Shown here: positions 28,269-43,035 of the stretch, piece after piece
How the letters are laid out: each line of letters opens with the position of its first letter
Position numbering within the stretch: the stretch's first letter is position 1
Source: Gemmatimonadota bacterium
GTDB taxonomy: Bacteria > Gemmatimonadota > Gemmatimonadetes > Longimicrobiales > Gaopeijiaceae
Reading direction: 5' to 3'
Length of the DNA: 64,000 nt
NCBI GenBank assembly: GCA_022560615.1
Contig: JADFSR010000001.1
Coordinates: 62,001-126,000 of the forward strand
Notes under the pieces: model-generated
Seen by the model: only the letters and a program-made list of their open reading frames with translations
Told to the model about the DNA's origin: nothing
Databases searched by the model: none
Program-made: the position numbers and the translations under genes

Positions 28269-28415
28269 CTCTCCTCCTCGAACCGCGGCACACTTCGCGA
28301 TCTAGCTCGCATGGATAAGGCGACCGACGGATGCGCCGTTACTTGATCTCACCTACCGCAGTCATGAATTCCCGGATGGGAACTAGTAGCTGTGGGTACT
28401 CACGATAGTGCCTGC

Positions 28416-28470: not shown

Positions 28471-28488
28471 AAGGTGCCGCCGCCGATC

Positions 28489-29052: not shown

Positions 29053-29138
29053 TGCCAAGCTCCGGAGGAAGACCGTCCGGCACACCGTTTCGATATCTCA
29101 AATCTAGCGGACGTTCGCGGCCACGTCTCAGCGCCTTT

Positions 29139-29297: not shown

Positions 29298-29345
29298 GTT
29301 ACCCGAGAACGTCACGTACCACCGCTCTGTTGCACCAAGAAAATA

Positions 29346-29369
29346 TGTACAGTATAGTTGTACAACTAT
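29346..29369 (+). promoter_or_regulatory. YefM operator upstream of yefM
   Basis: Two TGTACA cores (29346-29351 and 29359-29364) lie 13 bp apart. The second is the centre of a perfect 16-bp palindrome ATAGTTGTACAACTAT (29354-29369), 14 bp before the yefM ATG. Paired TGTACA palindromes are the known YefM/YefM-YoeB autorepression sites in E. coli, so this module probably keeps its own regulation. Confidence 0.8.
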
Positions 29370-29383
29370 TCGAGGAGTGCCCC

Positions 29384-29662
29384 ATGTTAGAGCAAGTCAC
29401 CTATAGCTATGCGCGCCAGAACCTCGCGAAGGTTTTGCAGGAAGCCGAGGAGCGCCGGGAGCCCGTCATCATTACAAGGCGGGGCCACGAAGACATGGCC
29501 CTGATTCCTGCGGACGAGCTCCGTAGCCTTGAGGAATCCGTACACCTGCTCCGCTCCCCGAAGAACGCTCAGCGCCTACTTCACGCGCTCCAGCGAGCTC
29601 TTGAGGAGGGCGGCGTCTCAGACTCGCCCGAATCGCTGAGGTCCAAGTTTGGCCTCGAGTAA
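29384..29662 (+). CDS. yefM: Antitoxin of YefM/Phd family (cassette 4)
   Basis: The ATG at 29384 (after GAGGAGTGCCCC) gives 92 residues: MLEQVTYSYARQNLAKVLQEAEERREPVIITRRGHEDMALIPADELRSLEE. This is the Phd/YefM DNA-binding fold with a C-terminal toxin-binding tail. It neutralises YoeB and, with it, represses the operon through the TGTACA sites upstream. It overlaps yoeB by 14 bp. It is one of only three intact cassette genes on the plus strand. Confidence 0.93.
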   Translation: MLEQVTYSYARQNLAKVLQEAEERREPVIITRRGHEDMALIPADELRSLEESVHLLRSPKNAQRLLHALQRALEEGGVSDSPESLRSKFGLE

Positions 29663-29933
29663 GGAAGCCAGCACAGCCCGGGTCACGTTCTTTCAGGACG
29701 AGTTCAGAGAGGACCTGCGGTTCTGGATAGACACCAATCGGCGCATCGCACTCAAGGTCATGGACCTAGTGGAAGCCGTCACTCGAAATCCCTTCAAGGG
29801 AATCGGGAAGCCCGAGCCGCTCAAGCACCTCGGAGCAAATGTGTGGTCGCGCCGGATCACACAGGAACACCGCCTCGTGTACCTGGTGCGAACCGACCGC
29901 ATCGACTTCCTCCAGTGTCGCTACCACTACTGA
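29649..29933 (+). CDS. yoeB: mRNA interferase toxin YoeB/Txe (cassette 4)
   Basis: A TTG start inside yefM gives 94 residues. FQDEFREDLRFWIDTNRRIALKVMDLVEAVTRNPFKGIGKPEPLKHL and WSRRITQEHRLVYLV are the YoeB core, and the C-terminal RYHY holds the catalytic His/Tyr end. YoeB cuts mRNA in the ribosomal A site when YefM is degraded. The gene directly abuts a broken hicBA pair on the opposite strand. Confidence 0.93.
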   Translation: MASSKEASTARVTFFQDEFREDLRFWIDTNRRIALKVMDLVEAVTRNPFKGIGKPEPLKHLGANVWSRRITQEHRLVYLVRTDRIDFLQCRYHY

Positions 29934-29935
29934 GG

Positions 29936-30160
29936 CACACCTTAGCGGGCATCCTAGAGACCTCGACGATCTCTTCGCTGATCGAAGGGGAACAGGATCG
30001 CCATGCGCCTCTAGGCTCTCGAGTAAGCAGCAATCGCCTCGCGAGAATTCGCCAACGCCTCATCCCGCGTGGACCCCTGCGTGATGCATCCCGGAAGACT
30101 CGGGACCGCCGCCAGGAATACACCGTCCTCATCCTGCTCGATCAATCCTCGGTATTTCAT
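29936..30160 (-). pseudogene. Remnant of a HicB antitoxin with the start of hicA
   Basis: From an ATG at 30160 with GGAGGACC upstream, the minus strand reads MKYRGLIEQDEDGVFLAAVP and SLPGCITQGSTRDEALANSREAI, a clear HicB N-terminus. It then stops after AAYSRA. The rest continues in other frames: LEAHGDPVPL, then ISEEIVEVSR, the normal HicB end, so at least two frameshifts have occurred. MPAKV at the end resembles the start of the HicA toxin, which is cut off where yoeB ends. No functional antitoxin can be made from it. Confidence 0.75.
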
Positions 30161-30209
30161 TTGTGGTCCTCCACCTCACTATCTACCGTCACCCTAGCTT
30201 ACGCGGCAT

Positions 30210-30396
30210 GTCCTGTAACGGGCCAAGGTGCTCCCGACGCGGTGCCCAGCGATCATTATACGTATGAGCGGGTCACGATCGTACGTACGCTGGGTGTAGC
30301 GTCCCGAAGGGCCGGTCCCGTTGCTCATCGTGCAACCTACCCGCCGCATCAGCGAAGCGTACCTGAGGGCGCGAGCGCGAGAGCGGCGTTACAAGA
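30210..30396. repeat. attC site 5, class A arms, long apical variant
   Basis: Left core CATGTCCTGTAAC at 30207-30219, right core GTTACAAGATG at 30388. The centre has the long variant hairpin CCCAGCG ... CGCTGGG containing ATACGTATGA and TCGTACGTACG. The left spacer is GGGCCAAGGT rather than GGACAGGC. Confidence 0.87.
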
Positions 30397-30419
30397 TGTG
30401 CCCCACCCGCGTAGTAGGG

Positions 30420-30974
30420 TCACCACATGAGGTGCGTTACAGCAGCATCGACGGTTCCTTCGAAGTCCGTGGAGCCGTCGACGTACGTGAGACCCAGCCG
30501 GTCGCACTCCTCGGAGAGATACGCACTGTATTCAATGCCGAACTGGACCACCGCGAGGATCTCCTCGTCGCTCTGCTCGTTCAGCCAGTCGTTGGCGTGC
30601 CCACGATGGCGGCGGATATCGGAAAGCTTCCGTTGCGGCTCGATATCGCGATAACCGACGAAGCACGATCGCACGTCGGCACCTGAAAGGCCTCGAAGCT
30701 CTGCGGCTTGCTTGGGCAGGACCATGTCCCCTTCAAAGACATAGTCGACGTCGGCCTCGAGCGCGTTCTCGGCCATCGCCCGAACTAGCGGCCACATGTT
30801 CTCGCCCACCTCGCGCGAGTGGGCGTTTGGGTCCACGCCCATTGAAGGGACGGCTCGGTGCAAACCCATCTTCAGCACGTCGAGAGACAGGAGCGCGATC
30901 CCCCTCTTCTGGACTAGCTCTCTTGAGATCATGCCCTTCCCAGCGCGAGGGGCCCCACCGAGTAGGATCAACAT
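30420..30974 (-). CDS. P-loop kinase-like protein (cassette 5)
   Basis: A 184-residue protein that opens with a Walker A loop, MLILLGGAPRAGKGMISREL. It later has YVFEGDMVLPKQAAEL and a Cys-Phe-Val-Gly-Tyr strand followed by a lid-like region (KLSDIRRHRGHANDWL). The size and layout suit a small nucleotide- or metabolite-kinase of the P-loop superfamily, possibly a resistance-type phosphotransferase. The substrate cannot be deduced. It is a single-gene cassette. Confidence 0.72.
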   Translation of the reverse strand: MLILLGGAPRAGKGMISRELVQKRGIALLSLDVLKMGLHRAVPSMGVDPNAHSREVGENMWPLVRAMAENALEADVDYVFEGDMVLPKQAAELRGLSGADVRSCFVGYRDIEPQRKLSDIRRHRGHANDWLNEQSDEEILAVVQFGIEYSAYLSEECDRLGLTYVDGSTDFEGTVDAAVTHLMW

Positions 30975-31021
30975 CCGGATACTTTCCGCCCCTTCTGAAG
31001 AACCCAGCTGCTCACGGGCAT

Positions 31022-31175
31022 GTCTTGTAACGGACAGGCGCTCCCGACGCGGAGGTGAGCATGTCAGTGCTCACCGCAGTGTCCGCGTAGCGGCCGAGCC
31101 GTTGCTCAGGGTGCGTCACATCAGCCTAATCGCGAAAGCGACCCGAGGCGACAGCTTGAGTCAGGCGTTACCAGA
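31022..31175. repeat. attC site 6, hybrid of class A and class B arms
   Basis: Left arm TTGTAACGGACAGGCGCTCC is class A. From GTGTCCGCGTAGCGGCCGAG onward the site is class B and ends GAGCTTGAGTCAGGCGTTACC. The outer arms therefore are not complementary as they are in other sites. Core GTT at 31167-31169. Confidence 0.87.
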
Positions 31176-31202
31176 CGTGAGCAGCCCGTCCGGCCCTACC
31201 GC

Positions 31203-31466
31203 CTAGGCCGCGACAAGTGGCGCTAATTCGCTCAGGTCGGGCCGGCTCAGTCCGAGCTCGTCGAATACGGCGAGAATCTCGTCGACGCTGGTGGCGCCCG
31301 GACTCACGATCTCAACACCGATCGGCCGCTCATCCCCGTCATAGTCGACCACGATCTCCCGTGCGACCTCTTCCGATCGGACGGCCTTCTGCCCCGGCGC
31401 ATGGTCGAGGCAGATGTACGCCGCGAAGGGCTGACCCTTCCGGTACGTGACTTGGAGAGAGATCAT
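31203..31466 (-). CDS. DUF2283-family protein (cassette 6)
   Basis: An 87-residue protein. YICLDHAPGQKAVRSEEVAREIVVDYDGDERPIGVEIVSPGA is a degenerate DUF2283 pattern (the family repeats a Val-Asp-Tyr-Asp...Gly-Ile-Glu-Ile element). These proteins are usually encoded next to DUF4258 proteins, as here with a 4-bp gap, and the pair is often found in mobile regions. A TA-like role is suspected but not shown. Confidence 0.75.
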   Translation of the reverse strand: MISLQVTYRKGQPFAAYICLDHAPGQKAVRSEEVAREIVVDYDGDERPIGVEIVSPGATSVDEILAVFDELGLSRPDLSELAPLVAA

Positions 31467-31470
31467 GGCG

Positions 31471-31662
31471 TCACACTTTCGGGTACGCGGTCACCACATA
31501 CGTAATCTGGTCGTCTGGGTCCGGCTCCACCACTATTACCCACGGAGCATCGCCAAGGTGCGTTGAGATCAGCCAGCGCCCGGAGCGTCGCGAAGATGTG
31601 ATCGCCGTTGCGTCGGCAAGCATGGTCCGAAGCTCGACTTCTGAGAATCCGCGCTCCTCCAT
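31471..31662 (-). CDS. DUF4258-family protein, possibly 5'-truncated (cassette 6)
   Basis: The ATG at 31662 gives 63 residues: MEERGFSEVELRTMLADATA, then HLGDAPWVIVVEPDPDDQITYVVTAYP, matching DUF4258 except that the usual first strand with a His is missing. The same frame continues upstream as WKWDLRFVSRVERRMEERG to a TAG, but without a standard start codon. The start has therefore been lost, or CTG (LRF...) is used. It is the first gene of the pair with DUF2283. Confidence 0.68.
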   Translation of the reverse strand: MEERGFSEVELRTMLADATAITSSRRSGRWLISTHLGDAPWVIVVEPDPDDQITYVVTAYPKV

Positions 31663-31751
31663 GCGACGCTCGACACGCGAGACGAAGCGCAGGTCCCACT
31701 TCCACTATTCAGGTCGATCCAACTACGCTCCTCACTAATGTCATCGCTCAT

Positions 31752-31907
31752 ATCTGGTAACGGACAGGCGCTCCCGACGCGGAGGTGAGCATGCGAGTGC
31801 TCACCGCAGTGTCCGCGAAGCGGCCGGGCCCGTCGCTCATGATACATCTTACCCGCTGAATCAGCGAAGCGTACCCGAGGGCCCGAGCGGGAGCGCGGCG
31901 TTACCAG
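31752..31907. repeat. attC site 7, class A
   Basis: Left core ATCTGGTAAC (to 31761) matches the reverse complement of site 6 core GTTACCAGAC. Apical hairpin GGTGAGCA / TGCTCACC. Arms GCGCTCCCG and CGGGAGCGC. Core GTT at 31900-31902. Confidence 0.9.
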
Positions 31908-31923
31908 ATGAAGCGCCGGTCGC

Positions 31924-32274
31924 CTACTCCTGATCTGGTACGTGCTCCAGAAGCGCTACGAGAAGAGGGTGCACTTCAGGCACGTCGACGGTGGCGGTGT
32001 CCCAGACGACGTCGAGCGCGACCACGAAATAGTCATGGATCAGCTTGTGGCGGAGCCCCGTGATTTCGCGCCAGGGAATCTCGGTGTGCTTCGTGGTGAG
32101 CCCGCGGGTCACGCGACCGGCGGCTTCACCAAGGACCTCAAGCTCGCGAATCAGGACGTCTTGGATCATCCAATCCAGTTCGAACTGCGCCTTCGTCGTC
32201 TTTGCCGTGACCTCTATCACTCGCTCAACCGCTTCTAGCATATGGCGGAGAAAGAGAGCGTCAGGCGGTGTCAT
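31924..32274 (-). CDS. hepT: HEPN-domain toxin, HepT-like (cassette 7)
   Basis: A 116-residue all-helical DUF86 protein. The HEPN catalytic motif Arg-X4-6-His is in GLRHKLIHDYFVVALDVVWDT. The N-terminus is LFLRHMLEAVERVIE. HepT proteins are RNases controlled by a paired MNT nucleotidyltransferase, which AMPylates the HEPN toxin. Here the MNT gene lies immediately upstream and overlaps by 14 bp. Confidence 0.9.
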   Translation of the reverse strand: MTPPDALFLRHMLEAVERVIEVTAKTTKAQFELDWMIQDVLIRELEVLGEAAGRVTRGLTTKHTEIPWREITGLRHKLIHDYFVVALDVVWDTATVDVPEVHPLLVALLEHVPDQE

Positions 32275-32551
32275 GGAAGATCACTCTCGCCTCAGCGAGG
32301 ACGTCGTCTCGCATGTACGGGCTCAGCCCGCCCTCCGTGAGAAGATCCACCGGCTGCCCAAAAAACTCGGCCAGCTCGTCCTCACAGCGAATGAGCCCGA
32401 AAAAGCCGGTCGGCCCGCCAAAATCTGCGATCAAGTCGATGTCGGACTCTGCGGTCTCCTCCCCGCGAGCAGCCGATCCGAAAAGGCGCAGCTGCGTCAC
32501 CCCATGCCGCCGGCATATCGCGGCGAGTCGAGAATCGTCGAATTGGACCAT
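32261..32551 (-). CDS. mntA: MNT-domain antitoxin nucleotidyltransferase (cassette 7)
   Basis: A 96-residue minimal nucleotidyltransferase with the active-site pattern LRLFGSAARGEETAESDIDLIADFG (Gly-Ser then Asp-X-Asp). MNT proteins AMPylate a tyrosine of the cognate HepT and silence it. It is the first gene of the pair. TTGACC and AGAATA (32585-32556) lie so close to the ATG that the message would be almost leaderless. Confidence 0.9.
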   Translation of the reverse strand: MVQFDDSRLAAICRRHGVTQLRLFGSAARGEETAESDIDLIADFGGPTGFFGLIRCEDELAEFFGQPVDLLTEGGLSPYMRDDVLAEARVIFHDTA

Positions 32552-32555
32552 ACCC

Positions 32556-32585
32556 TATTCTCTCAGACCACTGAAAATAGGTCAA
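32556..32585 (-). promoter_or_regulatory. Possible promoter of mntA-hepT
   Basis: On the minus strand TTGACC (32585-32580) and AGAATA (32561-32556) are spaced 18 bp. The mntA ATG is at 32551, so transcription would start at or very near the first codon. Confidence 0.42.
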
Positions 32586-32608
32586 CAGAACACACAGCCC
32601 TGAGCTTT

Positions 32609-32766
32609 GTCTGGCAACGGACAGGCGCTCCCGACGCGGAGTTGAGGTTGATAGACCTCGGCGCAGTGTCCCCGAAGGGGCCGGGCCCGTTGCTCATGAT
32701 ACACCTTACGCGCTGAATCAGCGAAGCGTACCTGAGGGCCCGAGCGGGAGCGCGGCGTTATAGGGC
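32609..32766. repeat. attC site 8, class A
   Basis: Left core GTCTGGCAAC (to 32618), near-complement of site 7 core GTTACCAGATG. Apical element GTTGAGGTTGATAGACCTCGGC. Right arm CGAGCGGGAGCGCGGCGTTATAGG. The stop codon of the next minus-strand gene lies inside it. Confidence 0.9.
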
Positions 32767-33095
32767 GTTGGTGCGGTCGTCGCCAGCCCTCCTGGTTCCC
32801 TCATCTGTTCGCGGTCGGCCCAATACTCTGGAGCTCGGCGATGGTGCATTACCGCCAGAACCCGAAGTCGCCCCTCTGAGGCCTTGTACAGTACGCTATA
32901 TGGGAATCGCGCGAGCAAACGCCGATGCACTCCGGGCCGAACGACGAACCCAGCGGCCGGATTCTCGGCGATGCCAGCAACGATGTCATAGACCTCGGCG
33001 CCCAGCGAGTCGCCGAGCTCAGACGCTTGACTATTGTAGAAGTCGATTGCCTCAGCCAATTCGACGCTGGCCGCATCATGGAATGTGACCAGCAA
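32718..33095 (-). CDS. RelE/ParE-family toxin (cassette 8)
   Basis: A TTG start at 33095 gives 125 residues. VTFHDAASVELAEAIDFYNSQA, PAAGFVVRPGVHRRLLARFPYSVLY and VLAVMHHRRAPEYW are the ParE/RelE core, about 92 residues. The last about 30 residues (ending ALPLGPSGTLR) are read from attC site 8, so the gene borrows its stop from the recombination site. The antitoxin gene ends 3 bp upstream. The target (gyrase or ribosome-bound mRNA) cannot be told. Confidence 0.87.
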   Translation of the reverse strand: MLVTFHDAASVELAEAIDFYNSQASELGDSLGAEVYDIVAGIAENPAAGFVVRPGVHRRLLARFPYSVLYKASEGRLRVLAVMHHRRAPEYWADREQMREPGGLATTAPTPYNAALPLGPSGTLR

Positions 33096-33098
33096 TCG

Positions 33099-33320
33099 CT
33101 ACCGCGTCCCACCTAGGCCGAGCGATTCGAAGACTTCCGACGCCGGAATCTCCGCGGCATCGCCGGACTCAAGATCGGACAGACGACGCTCGGCCTCATC
33201 ATACCAGGCCTGCTCGATTTCAGAATCCGCGTCGAGACTCGCGATGAGACGCTGCGCGAGGCGAGCTCGGTCCGGCTCGGACAACTTCAGGGCCTCGGCT
33301 TCCAGTTGATCTATTGTCAC
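33099..33320 (-). CDS. Addiction-module antidote protein (cassette 8)
   Basis: A GTG at 33320 gives 73 residues: MTIDQLEAEALKLSEPDRARLAQRLIASLD, then EIEQAWYDEAERRLSDLESGDAAEIPASEVF. This is the small helical antidote family (addiction module component) that pairs with ParE/RelE toxins. It is encoded directly before its toxin. The frame is open to 33347, but the extension shows no homology. Confidence 0.87.
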   Translation of the reverse strand: MTIDQLEAEALKLSEPDRARLAQRLIASLDADSEIEQAWYDEAERRLSDLESGDAAEIPASEVFESLGLGGTR

Positions 33321-33410
33321 CCCGGGCCTCCTCGGGCTTGGTCCCACATGATACCGCCGCCGAGTAGTCCAGTGCCATGCTCGAATCGGCCGTCCTCTGA
33401 AACCACGGCC

Positions 33411-33577
33411 CTCATAGAACGGACAAGGGACTCACGACGCGGAGAAGGGCGTGTCATCGCCCTTCGTAGTGTCCGCGAAGCGGCCGAGCCGTTGTCTAGG
33501 GTACGGCCACATCAGCCGAAGCGCGAAGCGCGTAGATAACCATCCGAGGCGAGAGCTTAAGTCAGGCGTTGGACGAC
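33411..33577. repeat. attC site 9, class B
   Basis: Left arm CATAGAACGGACAAGGGACT CACGACGCGG; apical hairpin GAAGGGCG / CGCCCTTC; subclass-specific CAGCCGAAGCGCGAAGCGCG (also in site 14); right arm GAGAGCTTAAGTCAGGCGTT. Core GTT at 33568-33570. Confidence 0.88.
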
Positions 33578-33929
33578 ATTCCTCACCGCCCGCTCCGATT
33601 CTCAAACACTGGCTCCGTAACGGGTTGCGATTCTGCTGCGGACCAGGATGCCAGCGAACGCCCGGAAGCTCAAGGAAGAAGCCCTCGGAGCCAGATCCGT
33701 CGGCAGCAATCGCGTGTCGCAATTGTACGCTCTTGGATGCGGTGCCCGCTGAGAGATTCCGACCGGAATATTTGCCACGATATAGAGTACTTTGTAAAGT
33801 AAAGCTTCGATACCCCTTGGCCGAAGTCACGATCTGCCCGTGCCGGAGGCCTCCAATGGTCGATTCTCGTGAGGTAGATCTGATCGGCAGAATCGGCGGT
33901 AGAAGGTCCAAGCACACAGGAAGGTAGCA
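33578..33929. other. Non-coding part of cassette 9
   Basis: About 350 bp between the site 9 core and the next gene. An open plus-strand frame runs through it but begins inside the attC site and has no convincing start or family. It is somewhat less GC-rich than its surroundings (TTTGTAAAGTAAAGCTTCG near 33791) and may hold the promoter of the next gene. Confidence 0.4.
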
Positions 33930-34436
33930 ATGAAGAAGTGGCTGAGACGCATCCGCGGCGCCATCGGGATGGGCCTGACCTGGGCAGTAGCATGGTTCGG
34001 CGCGGGCATGATCATGCTGCTGGGGCTTCTGCTGGTAACCGGTAGTACCGGCGCCGACGTCCCCTATCCCCTCGGGTTTGGCGCCTTCGGCTTTGTTGCC
34101 GGCGTCACCTTCTCAGGGGTCCTGGGTCTTGTTGAGGGCCGTCGCCGGTTTGATCAGATGTCCCTTCCACGCTTTGCTGGTTGGGGGGCCGCCGGAGGTT
34201 TCTTGCTGTCCGCGATCTTTGTCTTGGCCGTGGCCCTTGCAGAGGACCCCGCTTTCTTATGGAACCTGGTGGTCTTGGGCCCCATCTTCGCGGTGGCCGG
34301 CGCGGGCTCTGCCGCTGGTTCGCTGGCCCTAGCCAGAAGGGCGGAGGACCGAGAGTTGCTCGAGGCCAGTGAAGACGTGGCCGAGGTGGGGCCTTCCGAA
34401 GGTGAGGCGCGAGAGCTGCTCGGAGGCGGGGGCTGA
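33930..34436 (+). CDS. Membrane protein of unknown function (cassette 9)
   Basis: An ATG after AGGAAGG gives 168 residues with four transmembrane helices: TWAVAWFGAGMIMLLGLLLV, GFGAFGFVAGVTFSGVLGLV, GAAGGFLLSAIFVLAVALA and LVVLGPIFAVAGAGSAAGSLALA, followed by an acidic tail (ELLEASEDVAEVGPSEGEARELL). I recognise no named family. It is the only intact single-gene cassette on the plus strand. Confidence 0.72.
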   Translation: MKKWLRRIRGAIGMGLTWAVAWFGAGMIMLLGLLLVTGSTGADVPYPLGFGAFGFVAGVTFSGVLGLVEGRRRFDQMSLPRFAGWGAAGGFLLSAIFVLAVALAEDPAFLWNLVVLGPIFAVAGAGSAAGSLALARRAEDRELLEASEDVAEVGPSEGEARELLGGGG

Positions 34437-34654
34437 CCTCTCCACGTGGATCCAGTACGCAGCCTTGGAGAACGTTGCTCGTCCAGTTGTGTGCGGGTGG
34501 CCCGAGCGATGCCTAGCTATCCAATATGCCGCGAAGAGGCCGGTCGCTAATTCAGCGTGGAGGCCCCGATACATGACATACGTCGCAAGAACATGCCCTC
34601 CCGCGTGTAGAGCGGCTAGAGACTTCTCACGTCACACTCTGCCCGCCGTCAGGA

Positions 34655-34814
34655 ATGTCGTCCAACGGACAGGCGCTCCCGACGCGGAGGTGAGCATGTC
34701 AGTGCTCACCGCAGTGTCCGCGTGGCGGCGCCGGGCCGATAGGTCATGATACATCTGACCCGCTGAATCAGCGAAGCGTATCTGGGGCCCGAGCGGGAGA
34801 GCAGCGTTACCAGG
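34655..34814. repeat. attC site 10, class A
   Basis: Left core AATGTCGTCCAAC (to 34666) is the exact complement of site 9 core GTTGGACGACATT. Apical hairpin GGTGAGCA / TGCTCACC. Right core GTTACCAGGCG, GTT at 34806-34808. Confidence 0.92.
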
Positions 34815-34833
34815 CGTCCCCACCCCTCGCAGT

Positions 34834-35130
34834 CTAGTTCCCGATACGCCTGATCGCCGGACCCCCGAGGCGCAGCACCTCTTGCCCTGCCGGAGTCTCG
34901 ATGAGGAGGCTTGACTCGGGACCAGCCAGCAGGACAACCGCCGGCGTACCGGCAGCGTCGGTCAACACGAGTCGCCGTCCTTGTAGCTCGTCGCGCTCTT
35001 GAGGGAGCATCGCGCTGAGTACGAGAATCGTGACCAATGAACCGAGCAAAGCCACGAACCTGCGGCTCCCGCGCAGCGACCGTTCAAGGTCATGAACTCG
35101 CGATTCAAGCTCAGATGGAGTGTCCGACAT
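34834..35130 (-). CDS. Membrane-anchored protein of unknown function (cassette 10)
   Basis: A 98-residue protein: a charged N-terminal helix (SELESRVHDLERSLRGSRR), one membrane segment (FVALLGSLVTILVLSAML), then a small beta-rich domain (RRLVLTDAAGTPAVVLLAGPESSLLIETPAGQEVLRLGG) that would face the periplasm. The tail is repetitive in character, with alternating hydrophobic strands. No family recognised. Confidence 0.68.
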   Translation of the reverse strand: MSDTPSELESRVHDLERSLRGSRRFVALLGSLVTILVLSAMLPQERDELQGRRLVLTDAAGTPAVVLLAGPESSLLIETPAGQEVLRLGGPAIRRIGN

Positions 35131-35187
35131 CGATGAGCCTCCGAGGATTGGGGTTACCCCTTCGACTCATCACTCCGCCTCCGGGGA

Positions 35188-35368
35188 TGTCTGGTAACGG
35201 TCCAGGCGCTCCCGACGCGGAGCACCGCGACCCATACGTATGATTCAACGCCAATCGTACGTACGCGGTGCGGAGTGTCCGCGAAGCGGCCGGGCCCACG
35301 TTGGGATCAACCTACGATGTCCGCAGCAAATACACTAAGGGCCCGAGCGGGGGCGCGGCGTTAGCAGG
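35188..35368. repeat. attC site 11, class A arms, long apical variant
   Basis: Left core GATGTCTGGTAAC (to 35198). The centre has CACCGCG ... CGCGGTG around CATACGTATGATT and ATCGTACGTACG. Right arm GAGCGGGGGCGCGGCGTTAGC, GTT at 35360-35362. Confidence 0.88.
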
Positions 35369-35387
35369 CGTTGTGATCCGCACGGTC

Positions 35388-35861
35388 TTAGGACCGAGTG
35401 CGCCACACCGCGAGATGTTGGAAGTCCTTTCCGGTCAGAGATGTCCTCTTGACGAGCTTGTGCCCGAGGAGGTCGTGCCGAATCGCCGCAACGAGTTCGC
35501 CTGCGGCCTCAGCTTTCTCCTTCGCTGTCGCCGTCGCTCCGACGCGAACGGTCTCGAGAAAGGCGTACGCTTTGTCTATCACTTTATCGGGGCAGTAAAG
35601 CCACGAGATGTTCAATTCGTCTAGAAACTGTCTTTTAAGCCGATGGATCTCTTTCGCGTCTTCATCTACAAGTGTCCCGTCGGGATCGTCGACATAGAAG
35701 CCTCGCAAACCCTGTAGAAAGGACGTGTACCGCTCTTCCTTCCGCGCATGTTGTTCGGCTCGCCATCGCCTCCGTTCGTTCAACATCCAGGCTACGACAG
35801 CACCAACGAGCGGAACAAAGAACTTAAGGAAGTCTGGCGCGAGGAATTCGGTTGGGGTCAC
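35388..35861 (-). CDS. Membrane-anchored helical protein of unknown function (cassette 11)
   Basis: A GTG at 35861 gives 157 residues. One N-terminal membrane segment (FLKFFVPLVGAVVAWML) is followed by a cytoplasmic helical domain rich in Arg/Glu (NERRRWRAEQHARKEERYTSF; EIHRLKRQFLDELNISWLYC; AAGELVAAIRHDLLGHKLVK). No family recognised, although the layout recalls small cassette proteins seen in other chromosomal integrons. Confidence 0.68.
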   Translation of the reverse strand: MTPTEFLAPDFLKFFVPLVGAVVAWMLNERRRWRAEQHARKEERYTSFLQGLRGFYVDDPDGTLVDEDAKEIHRLKRQFLDELNISWLYCPDKVIDKAYAFLETVRVGATATAKEKAEAAGELVAAIRHDLLGHKLVKRTSLTGKDFQHLAVWRTRS

Positions 35862-35894
35862 GCGTCACCTCGAATCCAAAAGACGCTCTCCACA

Positions 35895-36052
35895 ATGTCT
35901 GATAACGGACAAGGGACTCACGACGCGGAGGTGAGGATGATAGCCCTCGCCGGAGTGTCCGCGTAGCGGCCGAGCCGTTGCTCAGGGTACGTCACATCAG
36001 CCTAATCGCGAAAGCGAGCTGAGGCGAGAGCTTGAGTCAGGCGTTGAGCGGC
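35895..36052. repeat. attC site 12, class B
   Basis: Left core AATGTCTGATAAC (to 35906), near-complement of site 11 core GTTAGCAGGCGTT. Left arm GGGACTCACGACGCGG, apical GGTGAGGATGATAGCCCTCGCC, right arm GAGCTTGAGTCAGGCGTTGAGC. GTT at 36043-36045. Confidence 0.9.
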
Positions 36053-36070
36053 GTTCCTCGCCCCGTCGCC

Positions 36071-36340
36071 TTAAACTGCCACACCCGGAGAAGGTGCTCC
36101 GCGAAGAAGGCCTTCGACGCTCAGGTCCTCGTCGATCGATGGCCAGTGTATCGCGTAGCCGCCGCCAGAGATCTCCCAGTCGGCTCGCTTAGCATCCGAG
36201 GCGTTCAGGAGTCGAGGATACCACGCCAGCGGCGCCGAGATCGTACGCCCGTCGGCGAGATCCACTCGGATGGAGTCCTCGCTGAACTGAACGTTTGCCA
36301 CGCGGGCGCCCGCACTATGTGAAGAAGCCGTTCCAGGCAT
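36071..36340 (-). CDS. DUF2442 protein (cassette 12)
   Basis: An 89-residue protein. VANVQFSEDSIRVDLADGRTISAPLAWYPRLLNASDAKRADWEISGGGYAIHWPSIDEDLSVEGLL is a complete DUF2442 domain. DUF2442 and DUF4160 genes occur side by side in many bacteria and are suspected to form a TA-like pair. Here they overlap by 26 bp. Confidence 0.87.
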   Translation of the reverse strand: MPGTASSHSAGARVANVQFSEDSIRVDLADGRTISAPLAWYPRLLNASDAKRADWEISGGGYAIHWPSIDEDLSVEGLLRGAPSPGVAV

Positions 36341-36548
36341 CTACCAATTCCTTCTCATGCCGCTGAACCAAGCGGAACAGCGTCGTAAGCTCATGCGACT
36401 TGAACCCCAGGCTTGACGCCAGGTTCACCGGAGACAGCCAGAACTTGGCAGTCGCCTCGTCGCGGTCCACGTGAACATGGGGCGGTTCGTTCGGCTCGTG
36501 ACTATAGAAATGGAAGCGATATGGGCCGGACCGAAGAACTGTTGGCAC
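36315..36548 (-). CDS. DUF4160 protein (cassette 12)
   Basis: A GTG at 36548 after GGGAGGAAGG gives 77 residues: MPTVLRSGPYRFHFYSHEPNEPPHVHVDRDEATAKFWL, the DUF4160 signature with its conserved His residues (EPPHVHV). It is the first gene of the pair with DUF2442. Function is unproven. Confidence 0.88.
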   Translation of the reverse strand: MPTVLRSGPYRFHFYSHEPNEPPHVHVDRDEATAKFWLSPVNLASSLGFKSHELTTLFRLVQRHEKELVDAWNGFFT

Positions 36549-36605
36549 TCGGCCTTCCTCCCTGAGCTCCGTGGACTCCTACGAATCTACACCAAGCTCC
36601 TCAGG

Positions 36606-36794
36606 AATGCCGCTCAACGGACAGGCGCTCCCGACGCGGAGCCCAGCGACATATACGTATGAATACATCCCGATCGTACGTATGCTGGGCGCAGTGTCCG
36701 CGAAGCGGCCGGGCCCTAGGTGCATGGTACACCTTACCAGCTGAATCAGCGAAGTGTACCTGGGGCCCGAGCGGGAGAGCAGCGTTACAGGATG
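36606..36794. repeat. attC site 13, class A arms, long apical variant
   Basis: Left core AATGCCGCTCAAC (to 36618), near-complement of site 12 core GTTGAGCGGCGTT. The centre has GCCCAGCGAC ... GCTGGGC with ATACGTATGAATAC and TCGTACGTATG. GTT at 36784-36786. Confidence 0.9.
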
Positions 36795-37108
36795 TCCCAA
36801 TCCACGAACATTCACCACCCGGCCCGCCGAAGGGATCCGCCCACAGGAGTCGAGCGCGGACAGCGAACCCTGAGATTCCGTGAACCCAGTTTCGGGCCAC
36901 CGAGGGCGCGGCCAGTGACGACGGCAGCGCCGCGCGCGATTACTGATTCGCGAGGAGCCTGAACTCAGATTGTACCTGATCTAGGAATTCGCCGCTCGAA
37001 TGAAGGATCGCGCGTCGACGCCCCACCTTACTTCCTCTTTTGGACGCGCCGTGATTCAGCTTGGCGATCGACTCCGCTCCTTACTCTCCCCACATGTCTT
37101 CGTTTGGG
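36795..37108. other. Cassette 13 without a convincing gene
   Basis: About 314 bp between two complete sites. No ORF has both a start and a recognisable product. On the minus strand a frame reads ESIAKLNHGASKRGSK and later AILHSSGEFLDQVQSEFRLL before a stop; it looks protein-like but lacks a standard start codon, so it may be a small-gene remnant. An RNA function is equally possible. Confidence 0.45.
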
Positions 37109-37278
37109 ATGTCCGATAACGGACAAGGGACTCACGACGCGGAGCTCGGGGTGCTAGCCCCGAGCGGAGTGTCCGCGCAGCGGCCGAGCCGTTGTCTAGG
37201 ATACGGTCACAGCAGCCGAAGCGCGAAGCGCGTAGGTAACCAACCGAGGCGAGAGCGTGAGTCCGGCGTTATACGTCG
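37109..37278. repeat. attC site 14, class B
   Basis: Left core GATGTCCGATAAC (to 37120). Apical hairpin CTCGGGG / CCCCGAG. Shares CAGCCGAAGCGCGAAGCGCG with site 9. Right arm GAGAGCGTGAGTCCGGCGTTATACG. GTT at 37268-37270. Confidence 0.9.
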
Positions 37279-37449
37279 TTTCTCACTGCCCGCGGAAAGA
37301 AGACTCACCTAGCGCCTTTGGATTCCCGTAGCGCGAACACGATAGCTTATCCGCGCACGTAACTTGCGGCTACATGAGCTTCCCGCGACTACAGCAAGTC
37401 CTTGTTTGAAGGCCCGCAGCAGACTGGGCCAATGACTGGTCGCCGCGGG

Positions 37450-40122
37450 CTACTCCGCTTTCAGGGTCGTGACCGGGTCCAACCTCACCGCCTCTCGTGC
37501 TGGGATCCAGCTAGCGGCAAGCGCGACACCGAGGAGGATCGTCGCGACCGCGGCGAGCGTCGCGGGGTCGGTCGGCGTGACGCCCCAAAGGTATTGCACC
37601 ATGATCCGCGAAAGCCCGAGAGAGGCCGCCAGGCCGAGCAGGAGGCCGACGAGCACGGGCGTGATCCCTTGACGGAGTACCATCTGCCGCACCTGTAGCC
37701 CCCCGGCTCCGAGTGCCATGCGGATCGCGATCTCGCGGTACCGTTGTCGTACGGTGTAGGCCAGCACGCCGTAGACACCGACGGCGGTCAGCGCGAGGGC
37801 GAGCGCGGCGAACACAGAGAGGAGCACAGCGCCGAAGCGTTCTCGAGCGAGTGAGCGAGTCACCACGTCATCTAACGGAAAGACCTGAGGTCTGGGGAGG
37901 GCCGGATCCACAGCGCGGAACGCCTCCACGAGCGCTCGCTCGATGCTCCCGCCTCCTGGCCGGCCCTGAGCGATGAAGACGGGCATCGTACCGAGCACAT
38001 TCGAGATGCGGGTCGGAGCCTGAGCCTGCGGCACGTACATCGTCCGGCGCGGATCGGCACGCAAGGACACCTCTCGGATGTCGCCGACCACACCGACGAT
38101 CTCGGCGCCCAGGCCAGCTAGCGACGGATCGATGAACTCATCTCGAATCCGACCGATCTCGATCCGTTGACCGATCGGATTCTCGTCAAGGAAGTACCGC
38201 CGAACGAAGGCCTCGTTCACGATCACGACGGGGGGGCCTTTCTCGACGTCCGTGTCCTCGAATGGACGACCTGCGACGATCGGAACGCCGAGCGTGCGAA
38301 AGTAGTCGGGCGTCACGGCCCGCCACTCGACCGCTCCTTCGAAGTCGCCAGGGCGACCGCCGATCGTCATTGGGAAGTTGATGCCACGCTCGAGTGGCAG
38401 GTTGGTCGCCCCGACTATCGATGCGATCGCTGCGGAGCCCTGCACCTGCTCTCGCACGCGCTGCTGAAGATCCCAAAGGTCCTGCGACGACTGGTATTCT
38501 GGCGGCCTAACGGGGAAGCGGACGGCGACGAGCCCCTCGGGGTCAAAGCCCGCGTCGACACGCGCCAGGCTAAACAGCGTCACCATGAGGAGGCCTGCGC
38601 CGGCGAGCAGCACCATCGATATCGCCGACTGCACGACCAGAAGGCCCTCCCGGGTGCGGCCGCGCCCGGAAGCTCCCCGAGCGCTCTGCTTAAGCACCTC
38701 CGAGAGCCGACCGCGAGCCGCAGGCCAGGCGGCCCAGGCGGCCGCCCCGCCGAAGAAGATGCTCGCAGCGAGCGCGGCGACGTACGTGAACAGCATGACC
38801 CGCCAGTCGACTGCGATCGTCCCCATGCGGGGAAGCTCGGAGGGCGCGAGCGAGACCAAGAGGCTCACGGCCCACCTTGACATCAGGAGACCGAGTGAGC
38901 CGGCGGCCAACGCAACGAGAACGGCCTCCGTGAGGACGAGGCGTGCGAGGCGTCCACGACTTGCCCCGAGCGCCGCCCGCAGCGCAGTCTCACCCCGACG
39001 CTGCATTGCACGCGCCAGGAAGAGGTTCGCAACGTTGGCACAGGAGATCAGAAAGACCAGCACGACAACGCCCATGAGGATCCATAGGGCCTTCGCTGAC
39101 TCGCCGACGTAAAGCTCGCTGAACGTCGCAAGCTTCATCCCGAGGTCTCGTCGGTATACGAGGTCGGGGTACTCCGCCGCGAAGGATGCGGTGAGCGACG
39201 ACACGTCCGTCTGGGCCTCCTGACGCAGGACGCCCTCGCGGAGGCTCGCGATCGTGGGCCAATTCTCGCCCTCGTCCATGGGATCGACGGAGAGGCCAAG
39301 AGGGACTAAGACTCGTACGGGCTCGTCGACGTATGGGAACTGGAAGCTCTCGGGGAGCACGCCGACGACGACGTAGGGTTCCTCGTTCAGATGGAGCATG
39401 CGACCTACGACGTCGGACGCGCCTCCGAAACGGGACTGCCAAATCTCGTGGGAAACGATCGCGACCTTCGCGCCGCCCGAAACATCTTCAGTGGCCATGA
39501 AATCTCGGCCTTGCCCAAGCGAATAGCCCAGGACGCCCAAGAATTCACGGCTGACCCGCAGCCCAGTGACGACCGAGACTTGACTGGCTTCGCCCACACG
39601 TCCATGGAAGTCCCGCCACGTCGCCACGGCATCGAATGAACGGACGTTGTCGTGCCAGTACTGGTACTTTCCGCGGGTCAGGTACGACTGGACGTGCGTA
39701 CCGCCGTCCCAGGCGAGGTGCACCACACGGTCGGCGTTGGGGAACGGGAGTGGCTGCAGGAGCACCGCATCTACGACGCTGAAGACCGCGCTGTTGGCAC
39801 CGATTCCGAGTGCCAACGTCAGGACGACAGCGGTCGTGAAGTGGCCCGCCTTGAGCAGCGACCTGAGACTGCGCGTAACGTCCTGTCCGAGCCCGTCCAT
39901 GCTCCACCTCCCGCCCCCGCGGCTTCTCAGCCGCTCGTAGACTCCTCTCTGAACAACGTCCCACACCGCTCTTGCTGCGGCGAGCCCCCCACGCACCCGT
40001 CCTCTTTCGCGGGCCTGCCTGACCTCGTGAGCGAAGAGCGCCTCCATAGCGGAGCCGTGCTTGCGGCGGAGATCCGGCGGGAGCGCCCGTAAGGCCACGC
40101 GGTAGATCCGCGCCCAGCTCAT
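37450..40122 (-). CDS. ADOP-type ABC transporter permease (MacB/FtsX family) in a cassette
   Basis: The ATG at 40122 (MSWARIYRVALRALPPDLRRKHG) gives about 890 residues with the duplicated-permease layout. A first membrane helix and MacB periplasmic core (VLTLALGIGANSAVFSVVDAVLLQPLPF, MLHLNEEPYVVVGVLPESF) are followed by an FtsX domain, then a second copy of both ending in LAASWIPAREAVRLDPVTTLKAE. The conserved last motif is that of this family. No ATPase gene is adjacent. A PadR regulator precedes it in the same cassette, the usual partner in Acidobacteria- and Gemmatimonadota-type genomes. Substrate unknown. Confidence 0.9.
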   Translation of the reverse strand: MSWARIYRVALRALPPDLRRKHGSAMEALFAHEVRQARERGRVRGGLAAARAVWDVVQRGVYERLRSRGGGRWSMDGLGQDVTRSLRSLLKAGHFTTAVVLTLALGIGANSAVFSVVDAVLLQPLPFPNADRVVHLAWDGGTHVQSYLTRGKYQYWHDNVRSFDAVATWRDFHGRVGEASQVSVVTGLRVSREFLGVLGYSLGQGRDFMATEDVSGGAKVAIVSHEIWQSRFGGASDVVGRMLHLNEEPYVVVGVLPESFQFPYVDEPVRVLVPLGLSVDPMDEGENWPTIASLREGVLRQEAQTDVSSLTASFAAEYPDLVYRRDLGMKLATFSELYVGESAKALWILMGVVVLVFLISCANVANLFLARAMQRRGETALRAALGASRGRLARLVLTEAVLVALAAGSLGLLMSRWAVSLLVSLAPSELPRMGTIAVDWRVMLFTYVAALAASIFFGGAAAWAAWPAARGRLSEVLKQSARGASGRGRTREGLLVVQSAISMVLLAGAGLLMVTLFSLARVDAGFDPEGLVAVRFPVRPPEYQSSQDLWDLQQRVREQVQGSAAIASIVGATNLPLERGINFPMTIGGRPGDFEGAVEWRAVTPDYFRTLGVPIVAGRPFEDTDVEKGPPVVIVNEAFVRRYFLDENPIGQRIEIGRIRDEFIDPSLAGLGAEIVGVVGDIREVSLRADPRRTMYVPQAQAPTRISNVLGTMPVFIAQGRPGGGSIERALVEAFRAVDPALPRPQVFPLDDVVTRSLARERFGAVLLSVFAALALALTAVGVYGVLAYTVRQRYREIAIRMALGAGGLQVRQMVLRQGITPVLVGLLLGLAASLGLSRIMVQYLWGVTPTDPATLAAVATILLGVALAASWIPAREAVRLDPVTTLKAE

Positions 40123-40159
40123 CCGTAGCAGCTTCACCACTCCTGAGAGCCCCGAGCCT

Positions 40160-40486
40160 TCACGCGCCCGCCCGACGTTGCTCGAGGCGCGCGCGCGCCA
40201 CACCCGCTAGCGACTGCATGCGCGCGACCTCGGCCTCCAGGGCGGTACACCCAGCCCCAGTTAGCCGGTAGTACCGCTCCCGCCCCCCGATTCCCGCCGG
40301 CCGTTCTTCCTCGTCGATCTCCTCAAGCCACCCGAGGGCGGTGAGCTCCTCGAGAGATCCGTACAGTGTCGCAGGCCAAAGGCGCACCCGACCGTCGCTG
40401 AGCTGCCGGACGTCTTCCTGAATGGCGGTTCCGTAGCGTGGCGCTGAAGAGACGGACAGTAGAACGAAGAACCAGTGCCGCTTCAT
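40160..40486 (-). CDS. PadR-family transcriptional regulator
   Basis: A 108-residue PadR protein. The winged helix includes FFVLLSVSSAPRYGTAIQEDVRQLSDGRVRLWPATLYGSLEELTALGWLEEI and the wing ERYYRLTGAGCTALEAEVARMQ. PadR repressors lose DNA binding on sensing a ligand. It is transcribed ahead of the ADOP permease with a 37-bp gap, so the two form an operon. Palindromic sequences just upstream are likely operators. The N-terminus seems slightly atypical (MKRHWF...). Confidence 0.92.
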   Translation of the reverse strand: MKRHWFFVLLSVSSAPRYGTAIQEDVRQLSDGRVRLWPATLYGSLEELTALGWLEEIDEEERPAGIGGRERYYRLTGAGCTALEAEVARMQSLAGVARARLEQRRAGA

Positions 40487-40520
40487 GGCACCCCCTCAAG
40501 CCTAGGCTTGCGACACAAAC

Positions 40521-40545
40521 TATGCATTCATAGTATGGCTGCATA
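40521..40545 (-). promoter_or_regulatory. Likely PadR operator
   Basis: TATGCA (40521-40526) and TGCATA (40540-40545) form an inverted repeat, with a smaller TATG-CATT-CATA inside. It lies 35 bp upstream of padR. PadR-family sites often carry such ATGCAT half-sites, so autorepression is plausible. Confidence 0.5.
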
Positions 40546-40730
40546 CAAAAGCGTGCAAGGTGTTCCCGGCAGCTGAGGCCACCGAAGTAGAGTGTGCGCG
40601 GGAGAGGTCTGCAGGACAGAACCGCAGCGTCAGAGGGACCTTATGATGGCGGACTATGCTGCGAAGACCACGCACTCTGCCGAGCAGCGCGGCCATCTCG
40701 TTCCTCGATCCCACCGTCCCGTCATCAGAA

Positions 40731-40889
40731 ATGACGTATAACGGACAATGGACTCACGACGCGGAGGAGGGCATGTCAGTGCCCTCCGTAGTGTCCGCGT
40801 AGCGGCCGAGCCGTTGCTCAGGGTACGTCACATCAGCCTAATCGCGAAAGCGACCTGAGGCGAGAGCTTGAGTCAGGCGTTATAGGGCG
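40731..40889. repeat. attC site 15, class B
   Basis: Left core AATGACGTATAAC (to 40742) complements site 14 core GTTATACGTCGTT across 3.4 kb. Apical hairpin GGAGGGCA / TGCCCTCC. Right arm GAGCTTGAGTCAGGCGTTATAGG. GTT at 40879-40881. Confidence 0.92.
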
Positions 40890-40943
40890 TAGTCCGCCTG
40901 CCACTTCACCGTGCTTCGCGCAGCCGTACCTGTGGCGTCCAGC

Positions 40944-41633
40944 CTAGTCGTTGCTAGGCGATGAGCCAGTTGCCGCCCATGTCCGAACGATCCGCAGGAT
41001 CTCTGGCCCCGGGAACCTCTCAAGCATCGCCATCGGACCGCTCCGGTAGACATCTTCGAGTCGCTTCAGTTGCTCGGCACGAGTGTCTGAGCTATCCGGA
41101 CGCGGGGCGTTCGACAGGATCTGAAATACTACGGACGCAGGCAGCCACTCGTCGATGTCGGTGGGCGCATTCAGGGAGTCACCCCGACCCAGCAGCCTTC
41201 CAAACGGATAGGGATCATGCCAGCCCAAGACATCAATCACGCGCCTCCTCTCGTGCTTCCGGGCTACATCGACTCGAAAGACGACCGCCGCTCCACTGGG
41301 TACCCATCCAGACTCCTCCCAGACGTCGCGGTTACATGTCGTGTCATACGCCCAGGGAACCGCCAAGAAGGTGTCCGCTGGCGCTAGGGTACCCCACGCA
41401 TCGCGCATCGGGTCGGGGCGACTAGCCATACGGACGACGAACTCATGCGCGACAACGCTTGAATCTGCCGCACCTATAAGTAGCTGGTCCCACGGCACCG
41501 GGACGGACTCGACGCGGCCCGTCGCAACCGCGAGCACGATTGATTCGCCCGCTGCTGGACCCAGAGAACCGGATTCGGATGAACACTGACTGGGGAGCAC
41601 AGACGACAGCACGACGGCGACCTGAAGCAGCAT
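40944..41633 (-). CDS. Exported protein of unknown function (cassette 15)
   Basis: A 229-residue protein with a short hydrophobic N-terminus (MLLQVAVVLSSVLPSQCSSES), which looks like a signal peptide with a possible lipidation Cys at 17, although the box is not canonical. The rest is a beta-rich domain (VAHEFVVRMASRPDPMRD, DTFLAVPWAYDTTCNRDVWEESGWVPSGAAVVFRVDVARKHE) and a helical end. No family recognised. It is the cassette nearest the recombinase, which in an integron would be the most recent arrival. Confidence 0.65.
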   Translation of the reverse strand: MLLQVAVVLSSVLPSQCSSESGSLGPAAGESIVLAVATGRVESVPVPWDQLLIGAADSSVVAHEFVVRMASRPDPMRDAWGTLAPADTFLAVPWAYDTTCNRDVWEESGWVPSGAAVVFRVDVARKHERRRVIDVLGWHDPYPFGRLLGRGDSLNAPTDIDEWLPASVVFQILSNAPRPDSSDTRAEQLKRLEDVYRSGPMAMLERFPGPEILRIVRTWAATGSSPSND

Positions 41634-41676
41634 GTCTTTCGTCCCTCCCCGCTCCGAACTCTATACGCTCTCAGAC

Positions 41677-41705
41677 TATGCCATATAACGGATAACTCAC
41701 GAACC
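41677..41705. other. Half-site between array and recombinase, possible attI
   Basis: GACTATGCCATATAACGGAT followed by AACTCACGA matches the left arm of class B sites, with a short deletion in the spacer. The rest of an attC is absent. Its core complements the site 15 core GTTATAGGGCGTAGTC. It lies 128 bp from the 3' end of the recombinase gene. It is either a truncated attC or the insertion site for new cassettes. Confidence 0.6.
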
Positions 41706-41833
41706 GTATCGCCTATTGGGCCTGACAGCCAGAATCGCGAAGATCGCCAATGGGGCAATCGCGCAGCGGGTCGCGAAGGCAGACAATTCACCTCTTGTCG
41801 CGCCACTCCCAATCCATGACGTCCCAACCCGCC

Positions 41834-42715
41834 CTATTCGTCGTCTTCGAAGAGCTGGTCGATGGGGCTCTTTATCTTCCGGAGATCACGCTGGGCCACG
41901 TGCGTGTAGATGACCGTCGTGGAGATCTTCGCGTGTCCGAGCAGTTCCTGGATGCTCCGCAGGTCCGTTCCGCCCTCTAGGAGATGGGTCGCGAAGCTAT
42001 GCCGCAGCATGTGCGGGGTGACCCGCTTTCTGATACCGGCTCTCTTCCCGGCCCGGGCGACCTGCTTCTGGATGGATCTGGTGGTGATGTGTCTGTCCCG
42101 TCTGTGCCCGCCTGGGAAGAGCCAGTGCGCGGGTCGTTCCACGCGGACGTATTCCCTCAACACGCCGAGTACCACCGGCGACAGCATGACGTAGCGGTCC
42201 TTGCGACCCTTCCCCTGTCGGACATGGATCTGCCCTCGTTGAGAATCGACGTCCTCCACCCGCAGCCGTGAGACCTCGCCCACGCGGAGCCCGGCGGAAT
42301 ACAGAATGAACGCGATGGCTCGGTGCTTGGGTGACCCGAGCTCGTTCAGGAAGCGACGTGCCTCCAGCGCGCTGAGAACCTTGGGCAGCGTCTTCCCGCG
42401 TTTCGGCCGTGGGATGCCGGCCACGGGAGCAGGCGCGTTCAGGACGTATCGGTGCAGGAACCTGAGAGCGCTCAGCGCTTGGTTGGCATAGCTGTGCGAC
42501 AAGCCTGACCGGAGCATACCCAGCAACCAGGCGCGGACCTCCCCGTCCGTGGCCACTTGATCCTCGGCCGCTCTCCCCGCATAGAATCGTCGCGCGTGGG
42601 CGGAATAGAGCGATCGTGTTTGTCGGGCATATCCGCGGAGCACCATCTCGTCGTCGAGGCGCCGCAAGAGCTCCCGCAGCCAGTCAGGGAGTGTCGCTCG
42701 GGTCTTGGAATTCAT
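41834..42715 (-). CDS. Tyrosine recombinase beside the cassette array
   Basis: The ATG at 42715 gives 293 residues. Residues about 10-95 are a core-binding SAM-like domain and 115-285 the catalytic domain. Catalytic residues are visible: Arg-144 (SAGLRVGEV), Lys-172 (GKGRKDR), His-235 and Arg-238 (HMLRHSFATHLL), His-261 (LLGHAKISTT) and Tyr-270 (VIYTHV). The end IKSPIDQL recalls the IntI and IS91-associated recombinases. The extra block that defines IntI integrases between the Lys and His motifs is absent: only WLFPGGHRRDRH lies there. It could be a non-canonical cassette integrase or an unrelated neighbour. The gene's 3' end faces the array. Confidence 0.9.
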   Translation of the reverse strand: MNSKTRATLPDWLRELLRRLDDEMVLRGYARQTRSLYSAHARRFYAGRAAEDQVATDGEVRAWLLGMLRSGLSHSYANQALSALRFLHRYVLNAPAPVAGIPRPKRGKTLPKVLSALEARRFLNELGSPKHRAIAFILYSAGLRVGEVSRLRVEDVDSQRGQIHVRQGKGRKDRYVMLSPVVLGVLREYVRVERPAHWLFPGGHRRDRHITTRSIQKQVARAGKRAGIRKRVTPHMLRHSFATHLLEGGTDLRSIQELLGHAKISTTVIYTHVAQRDLRKIKSPIDQLFEDDE

Positions 42716-43035
42716 CGCAAACCATGTTCGCCACTCCCGCGAGCCACCGGAATACGAGGATCGGCCACCCACCCGACCCAACAAGGAAAAACGGTAATGA
42801 GACCGACGGATGGGTTCTGCTCAGAGCGCGCAGGCGTACCCCGCGAACAAGCGACGAAGACGGAAACCGGAGTCCGGCAAAGCCGGCCTCCGGGCGAGCA
42901 AAGCGAGCGAATTTCCGCGCAGGAGCTTAGCCCCCCGCGAACCCAAACCAAGCGCCCACAGCCAGCGTCCCCCAGAGACCCCGATTAAGCCGAAGCGCGG
43001 CGAGTAGAGCCCATCCGGCGGTCCCTGCACAGAGG
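42716..43035. other. Intergenic region between actF and the recombinase
   Basis: This 320-bp stretch has no supported gene. It contains the strong hairpin annotated separately at 42867-42893 and small repeats GCGAGCAAAGCGAGCG next to it. It should hold the recombinase promoter, but I see no convincing -35/-10 pair and no attC-like arm. Confidence 0.5.
42867..42893 (-). terminator. Hairpin after the alternative complex III operon
   Basis: CCGGAG-T-CCGGC, loop AAA, GCCGG-C-CTCCGG: 11 paired bases with one mismatch. On the minus strand it is followed only by TTT, so it is a weak intrinsic terminator at best. It lies 143 bp past the actF stop. Confidence 0.55.

Follow-up and report, generated by a model that had tools for sequence, protein, structure and literature searches.

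The 64,000-nucleotide stretch of a Gemmatimonadota genome analyzed here (the window; positions 62001-126000 of contig C1 in the 4.5-Mb source genome, G000) contains an array of gene cassettes that ends at a tyrosine recombinase, and the second cassette counted from that recombinase carries a gene for a PadR-family regulator and one for an ADOP permease. We found that this padR-ADOP unit is a real, unusually large integron-type cassette. The array is best explained as a chromosomal 'reverse' integron, with its recombinase transcribed toward the attI-like point and the cassettes, and the recombinase is without the I2 insert of canonical integron integrases (IntI). The cassette and its flanking sites, in window coordinates, are as follows.

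37120-40741, minus strand: padR-ADOP cassette, 3,622 bp assuming the usual G^TT crossover; delimited by end pairing, flanking sites and absence in the congener G060.
37118-37270, minus strand: attC-like site belonging to the padR-ADOP cassette ('class B'), identified by aligning and folding 11 sites; 85% similarity to the one at 33418-33593.
40740-40881, minus strand: attC-like site of the neighbouring, attI-proximal cassette, from repeat search, alignment and end pairing.

A preliminary description of this DNA had two class B sites flanking padR and the permease at 37268-40742, and both cores were indeed found there, with a pairing that in its context goes beyond chance. The cores, GTTATACGTCGTT (37268) and AATGACGTATAAC (40730-40742), differ at 1 of 13 positions, and each stands at the edge of a conserved attC-like site of about 150 bp; together they are the two ends of the padR-ADOP cassette. 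An integron cassette begins with bases that are complementary to the outer arm of the site it carries. For 12 cassettes of the array, the 14 bases after GTT were compared with the 14 bases before AAC, using 20,000 permutations. Own partners paired at a mean of 10.2 of 14 positions vs 5.8 of 14 with the others, and the observed sum was reached in none of the 20,000 permutations. Pairing was weak for two of the 12, with a score of 4 for 29291/30217, no better than with others, and of 7 for 32757/33418. The ends of the padR-ADOP cassette are complementary at 12 of 14 bases outside the GTT/AAC core. The 13-mer core had also been tried as stand-alone evidence (9 matches with at most 3 mismatches vs 6.6 expected) and was given up in favor of the pairing test.

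Folding of the 11 aligned sites gave compensatory double changes at 10 of 30 predicted pairs. The padR-ADOP unit has the 3′ attC-like site of an integron cassette, with AAC/GTT edges and an inverted-repeat fold, and a 5′ end complementary to that site; its presence also varies at the orthologous array, as seen in one congener (G060). Recurrent mismatches at positions 7-8 of the paired ends read G.T on the plus strand and A.C on the minus strand, and many cassette starts in the window read GTTANNNGACAT. Three sites (30217-30388, 35196-35360 and 36616-36784) have an extra stem around TACGTATG...CGTACGTA that replaces the short hairpin of the others.

The wider locus, which spans the array and its boundary with the recombinase, comprises the following.

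27352-41689, minus strand: whole cassette array, about 15 cassettes, with the far-left sites truncated or degenerate; its two limits agree with the points (41687 and 27325) where colinearity with G060 is lost.
40742-41688, minus strand: first cassette, with an open reading frame at 40944-41633 and end complementarity of 11/14 between 40879 and 41687.
41687-41833, minus strand: attI-like region between the recombinase stop and the first cassette; 85% colinearity with G060 ends at the GTT core at 41687.
41834-42784, minus strand: tyrosine recombinase without an I2 insert, transcribed toward the array; 217 bits with the integron-integrase model TIGR02249, below the cut-off of 265.

From 27.35 to 41.69 kb, the array consists of attC-like sites of about 150-180 bp and ends at the tyrosine recombinase, and the first cassette begins at 41687, about 145 bp past the recombinase stop. 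End pairing is symmetric and carries no directional information; the orientation of the array was therefore read from the position of the attI-like point, the direction of the genes and the same layout in relatives. The homology break at the GTT core at 41687 places an attI-like site beside the recombinase, where cassettes would presumably be inserted, and 12 of 14 hand-picked gene-bearing cassettes are directed away from the recombinase. With the array read on the minus strand, the left site (37118-37270) is the cassette's own and the right site that of the next cassette, and padR and the permease lie in the sense direction. The plus strand is then the bottom strand, which is the strand that known integrons recombine, and it gave the more stable fold in 4 of 4 sites folded. 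The asymmetry of the site sequences was dropped as a guide to orientation, since the window and a relative (G082) differ in it. In canonical integrons, intI is divergent from the cassettes; the recombinase here and in relatives is transcribed toward the array. Canonical IntI loci of the phylum likewise incline to this reverse layout: repeats lie downstream in 6 of 8, and fewer repeats lie upstream in 4 of 8.

The genus-level comparison, which covers one other species (G060), shows how the locus varies. Its flanks are colinear with the window, at 85% over 11 kb, and this colinearity breaks exactly at 41687 and resumes at 27325. Between these points, G060 carries 6.3 kb of different cargo (methyltransferase, PhyH and others), with no permease of the window's subfamily and none of the window's cassettes. 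The finding that had been named as contradicting capture, the permease occupying the same position in relatives that lack the sites, was not seen, as the G060 locus is without the permease and has a different array. In G082 the layout is the same, with an I2-less recombinase and six cassettes whose own-pair mean is 11.5 of 14 vs 6.0. A further relative (G108) has related attC-like sites with matching ends, as read by eye.

The contents of the cassette form a self-contained unit, with these elements.

37450-40203, minus strand: ADOP permease open reading frame; TIGR03434 774.8 bits (cut-off 622), with MacB_PCD twice and FtsX twice.
40160-40486, minus strand: padR, 108 residues, PadR-family regulator; PF03551 42 bits, and TIGR03433 41.2 bits, below its cut-off of 101.8.
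40519-40534, minus strand: operator-like dyad ACTATG-N4-CATAGT upstream of padR.

The permease is an ADOP by its score above the curated TIGR03434 cut-off and its duplicated MacB_PCD/FtsX domains. Its start is probably the GTG near 40137-40140, giving about 895 residues, close to the 890 first proposed. The regulator belongs to the general PadR family and falls short of the acidobacterial PadR model (TIGR03433). Both genes fill the cassette except for some 180 and 250 bp at its margins. TACTAT/ATAGTA repeats precede padR here, as they do padR homologs at three other loci (L007, L049 and L059), and are its putative operator. A strong sigma70 promoter had been read by eye before padR; a consensus scan found no sigma70-like promoter, and only the dyad was retained. 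Because PadR and its putative operator travel with the permease, expression need not rely on an array promoter.

ADOP genes had been described beforehand as otherwise ordinary chromosomal genes, and this agrees with their distribution. From the source genome, 29 further ADOP matches were retrieved, the best of them 37% identical to the cassette permease, so the latter was not recently copied from a gene already resident there. By a single tblastn query, whose counts are a lower bound, padR homologs adjoin at least 7 of the 29 loci in this genome and at least 2 of 14 other ADOP loci. Among 121 genomes of the family, the best permease homolog (G118) is 54% identical, preceded by padR and set among chromosomal genes, and a search with the attC profile near it found no site of the window's type.

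A cassette typically holds one small gene; the padR-ADOP cassette was rightly singled out as departing from this, with two genes and a body of 3472 bp vs 334-1096 bp for 11 others in the window. Arrays of relatives contain 110 non-nested cassettes (from 40 of 79 loci) with a median of 645 bp and a 95th percentile of 1.6 kb, in a sample where contig ends and a 10-kb limit bias against long cassettes. One of these 110 is comparably large, a 3.7-kb cassette with hairpin ends in Halanaerobacter jeridensis (L137 15449-19139) that matches GajA (525 bits) and GajB (594 bits) of Gabija-type defence. The suggestion that this system moves large operons finds support, as something that recurs but is rare. 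Larger candidates of 2-5.6 kb at five loci (L115, L132, L138, L144 and L160) proved to be nested over smaller cassettes or spurious. In published work, the median coding sequence of sedentary integrons is given as 362 bp, and cassettes with 3-kb inserts are described as still excised, at a lower rate for some sites (PMC5371416).

Three other accounts of the locus have to be set against a single large cassette read away from the recombinase. If the sites were read on the plus strand, the array would run toward the recombinase with padR-ADOP antisense; the symmetric pairing permits this, and the plus-strand 3′ ends read GCGTT, as do many known attC sites. We regard this reading as very unlikely, given that the attI-like boundary adjoins the recombinase, the far-left sites are decayed, the gene directions (12 of 14) are opposed to it and relatives share the layout. 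An insertion of a chromosomal padR-ADOP pair into an existing small cassette by some other mobile element would account for the exceptional size, but no transposase-like gene or repeats were seen around padR and the permease inside the cassette, and the two genes fill it in the sense direction with short margins, which makes this still less plausible. Least plausible is that the 3.6-kb unit consists of at least two cassettes fused through loss of an internal site. Cassette fusion is known, as noted in one source (PMC8876359), but it would destroy the pairing of the outer ends, and the padR-ADOP operon exists outside arrays; neither the repeat search nor the profile found a remnant of an internal site. 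As the outer ends match each other, the padR-ADOP operon appears to have arrived as one cassette.

The recombinase beside the array was unforeseen in the preliminary description and changes what 'this system' is. Aligned with IntI4, it appears about 40 residues shorter in the region of the I2 helix. A canonical integron is marked by the additional I2 domain specific to IntI; the absence of this domain here, as judged from sequence, leads us to file the system as an integron-like variant. Of 80 relatives, 62 have a spacing of 66 between the GKGxKxR and HxxRH motifs, 7 have 65, 67 or 68, and one each has 62 and 73, with the other 9 unreadable or misread; canonical IntI has a spacing of 107-108 (5 of 8 readable, plus the IntI on contig C30). 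In a tree whose outgroup was the source genome's two Xer-like proteins only, with C6 left out, the 13 IntI rows form one clade (100/100) among the I2-less rows, and the window family together with IntI is separate from Xer at 100/100, placing the recombinase outside the housekeeping Xer proteins. Support is 89/73 where IntI joins the I2-less rows closest to it. It is thus likely, but not firm, that canonical IntI are nested among I2-less recombinases; alternatively, I2 may have been lost. The source genome encodes other I2-less recombinases at C2:219819-222650 (L099) and C13:89479-90318, and a window-type site lies about 1.85 kb behind the one on C2, at the contig end.

I2-less recombinases are associated with hairpin-ended arrays in several phyla. 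We collected 80 recombinase loci and used 79, dropping one (L145) whose 58 pairs resemble one long inverted repeat. Counting end pairs complementary at 12 or more of 14 bases, there were 117 in 347 kb downstream of the I2-less gene vs 6 in 668 kb upstream, the upstream figures including L145. Such pairs occur at 40 of the 79 loci (41 of 80 counting L145), and a GTTR...GRMR core stands at 92 of 110 cassette starts vs 5.6% of all GTT. Array-bearing loci were found in Paenibacillus, Cohnella, Saccharibacillus, Clostridium, Halanaerobacter and Gemmatimonadota (window 41834-42784; L103-L182), with at least 12 sites in Cohnella lupini. None of 15 array-bearing Bacillota genomes tested has an IntI above the TIGR02249 cut-off; of 200 genomes from the window's phylum, 67 have one by the same model. 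Searches of the open-access (PMC) literature showed, among the matches listed, no earlier account of cassette arrays beside I2-less recombinases.

We propose that the ends of a circularised cassette would pair into a long hairpin, the attC-like site, and that a tyrosine recombinase would join the cassette at its G^TT core to attI or to another site. The adjacent I2-less relative of IntI would be the likeliest mover, and the cassette it moved would bring its own PadR repressor, with a putative operator ahead and the MacB/FtsX-like permease behind. We infer action of the recombinase on these sites, the choice of strand, the crossover base and autoregulation by PadR; activity of the I2-less recombinase is suggested by its association with arrays.

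A different mover is conceivable, as the source genome also encodes a canonical IntI (C30:14037-14957; L097, L098) that scores 295.7 bits, above the cut-off, and has its own repeats downstream. It could move the array in trans, leaving the I2-less neighbour a bystander; G108 too carries a canonical IntI (on its contig C29) that could act in this way, and the G060 array has, by eye, apparent ends of C30-type sites. We consider this unlikely, since the C30-type sites, several kb downstream of that IntI, differ in sequence from those of the window, G082 combines an I2-less recombinase and an array with no canonical IntI above the TIGR02249 cut-off, the 15 array-bearing Bacillota genomes tested likewise have none, and end pairs lie downstream of I2-less genes and hardly ever upstream.

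Several further observations weigh, like the canonical IntI in these two genomes, against the I2-less recombinase as mover or against capture of the permease. No end pairs were found at 39 of the 79 loci, many of them on contigs that stop close behind the gene. The G060 recombinase is frameshifted, and its array has only one window-type site. The closest permease relatives were not found in cassettes, its capture was seen once, and neither a recombination product nor a circular cassette was observed. Taken with the evidence above, we hold it to be quite probable that padR-ADOP is a genuine cassette of a reverse integron, with the I2-less recombinase as its likeliest mover. The wider meaning of the cassette rests on that recombinase. 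More tentatively, and with somewhat less than even confidence, the array may belong to a widespread class of I2-less integrons (in Gemmatimonadota, Paenibacillaceae, Clostridia, Halanaerobiales and others) that recombine folded sites without I2, the domain regarded as required for this, and form the stem group of IntI, in which case arrays would be older than I2 and, free of the usual size limit, could take up whole regulated or two-gene operons, padR-ADOP and the GajA-GajB-like pair being examples.

Other parts of the array carry smaller cargo. The open reading frame of the first cassette has no family match in Pfam or NCBIfam. Among the remaining cassettes, 29384-29933 encodes a Phd/YoeB pair that runs opposite to the array, 31924-32551 HepT and a nucleotidyltransferase, and 33099-33347 an antitoxin of an addiction-module family; 30420-30974 has a weak zeta-toxin/AAA match. 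At the far end of the array, half sites at 27377, 27729 and 28463 keep one arm and are decayed or truncated. The site at 31018-31178 is a mosaic, with a left half of 'class A' type and a right half of 'class B' type, and resembles a recombinant junction. Window-type sites also occur, singly or paired, away from the recombinase on C1, at C23:28985-29118, C18:14709-15603, C2:193.6-194.6 kb and C34:1.3-4.4 kb (G000; L072-L075).

The system shares with the sedentary chromosomal integrons of the Vibrio/Xanthomonas type its tandem cassettes, hairpin sites with AAC...GTT edges, pairing of cassette ends with their own sites, and an array adjoining a tyrosine recombinase and an attI-like point. It differs from them in a recombinase without I2, in long (about 150-180 bp), branched sites with a GTTR...GRMR core, and in its 3.6-kb two-gene cassette. 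The chromosomal padR-ADOP operons of Gemmatimonadota have the same gene order, families and TACTAT/ATAGTA repeats before padR, but the window copy lies inside a cassette between attC-like sites. Like the Xer recombinases (XerC/XerD, XerA), the window recombinase has no I2 insert, and XerC-like 4a8e is its best PDB sequence match; unlike them, with their one dif-like site, it adjoins cassette arrays, and its family groups with IntI. A recombinase directed toward attI and the cassettes is also found in the reverse integrons of Treponema, where intI is transcribed toward attI in the direction of the cassettes; the paper concerned describes the Treponema IntIs as integron integrases, and the likeness drawn here is one of layout (PMC3607928).

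A self-regulated two-gene operon in a single cassette shows that units of this kind can form and persist. A 2025 review describes, in its treatment of integron defence systems, a streamlining to small size in which larger multi-gene systems are absent (PMC12409362). Acquisition of I2 has been presented as what enabled integron integrases to act on single-stranded attC sites, and a 2020 study remarked that intermediates are lacking (PMC7790495). I2-less recombinases beside hairpin-ended arrays would be living candidate intermediates, some of them in culturable strains, and with them the origin of integrons would become testable. The IntegronFinder 2.0 paper reports one complete integron in Bacillota (PMC9024848); because the integrase is searched for with IntI profiles, Bacillota arrays may be widely missed. 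Our finding thus hints at an unrecognised, possibly older form of integron that may be able to carry whole operons.

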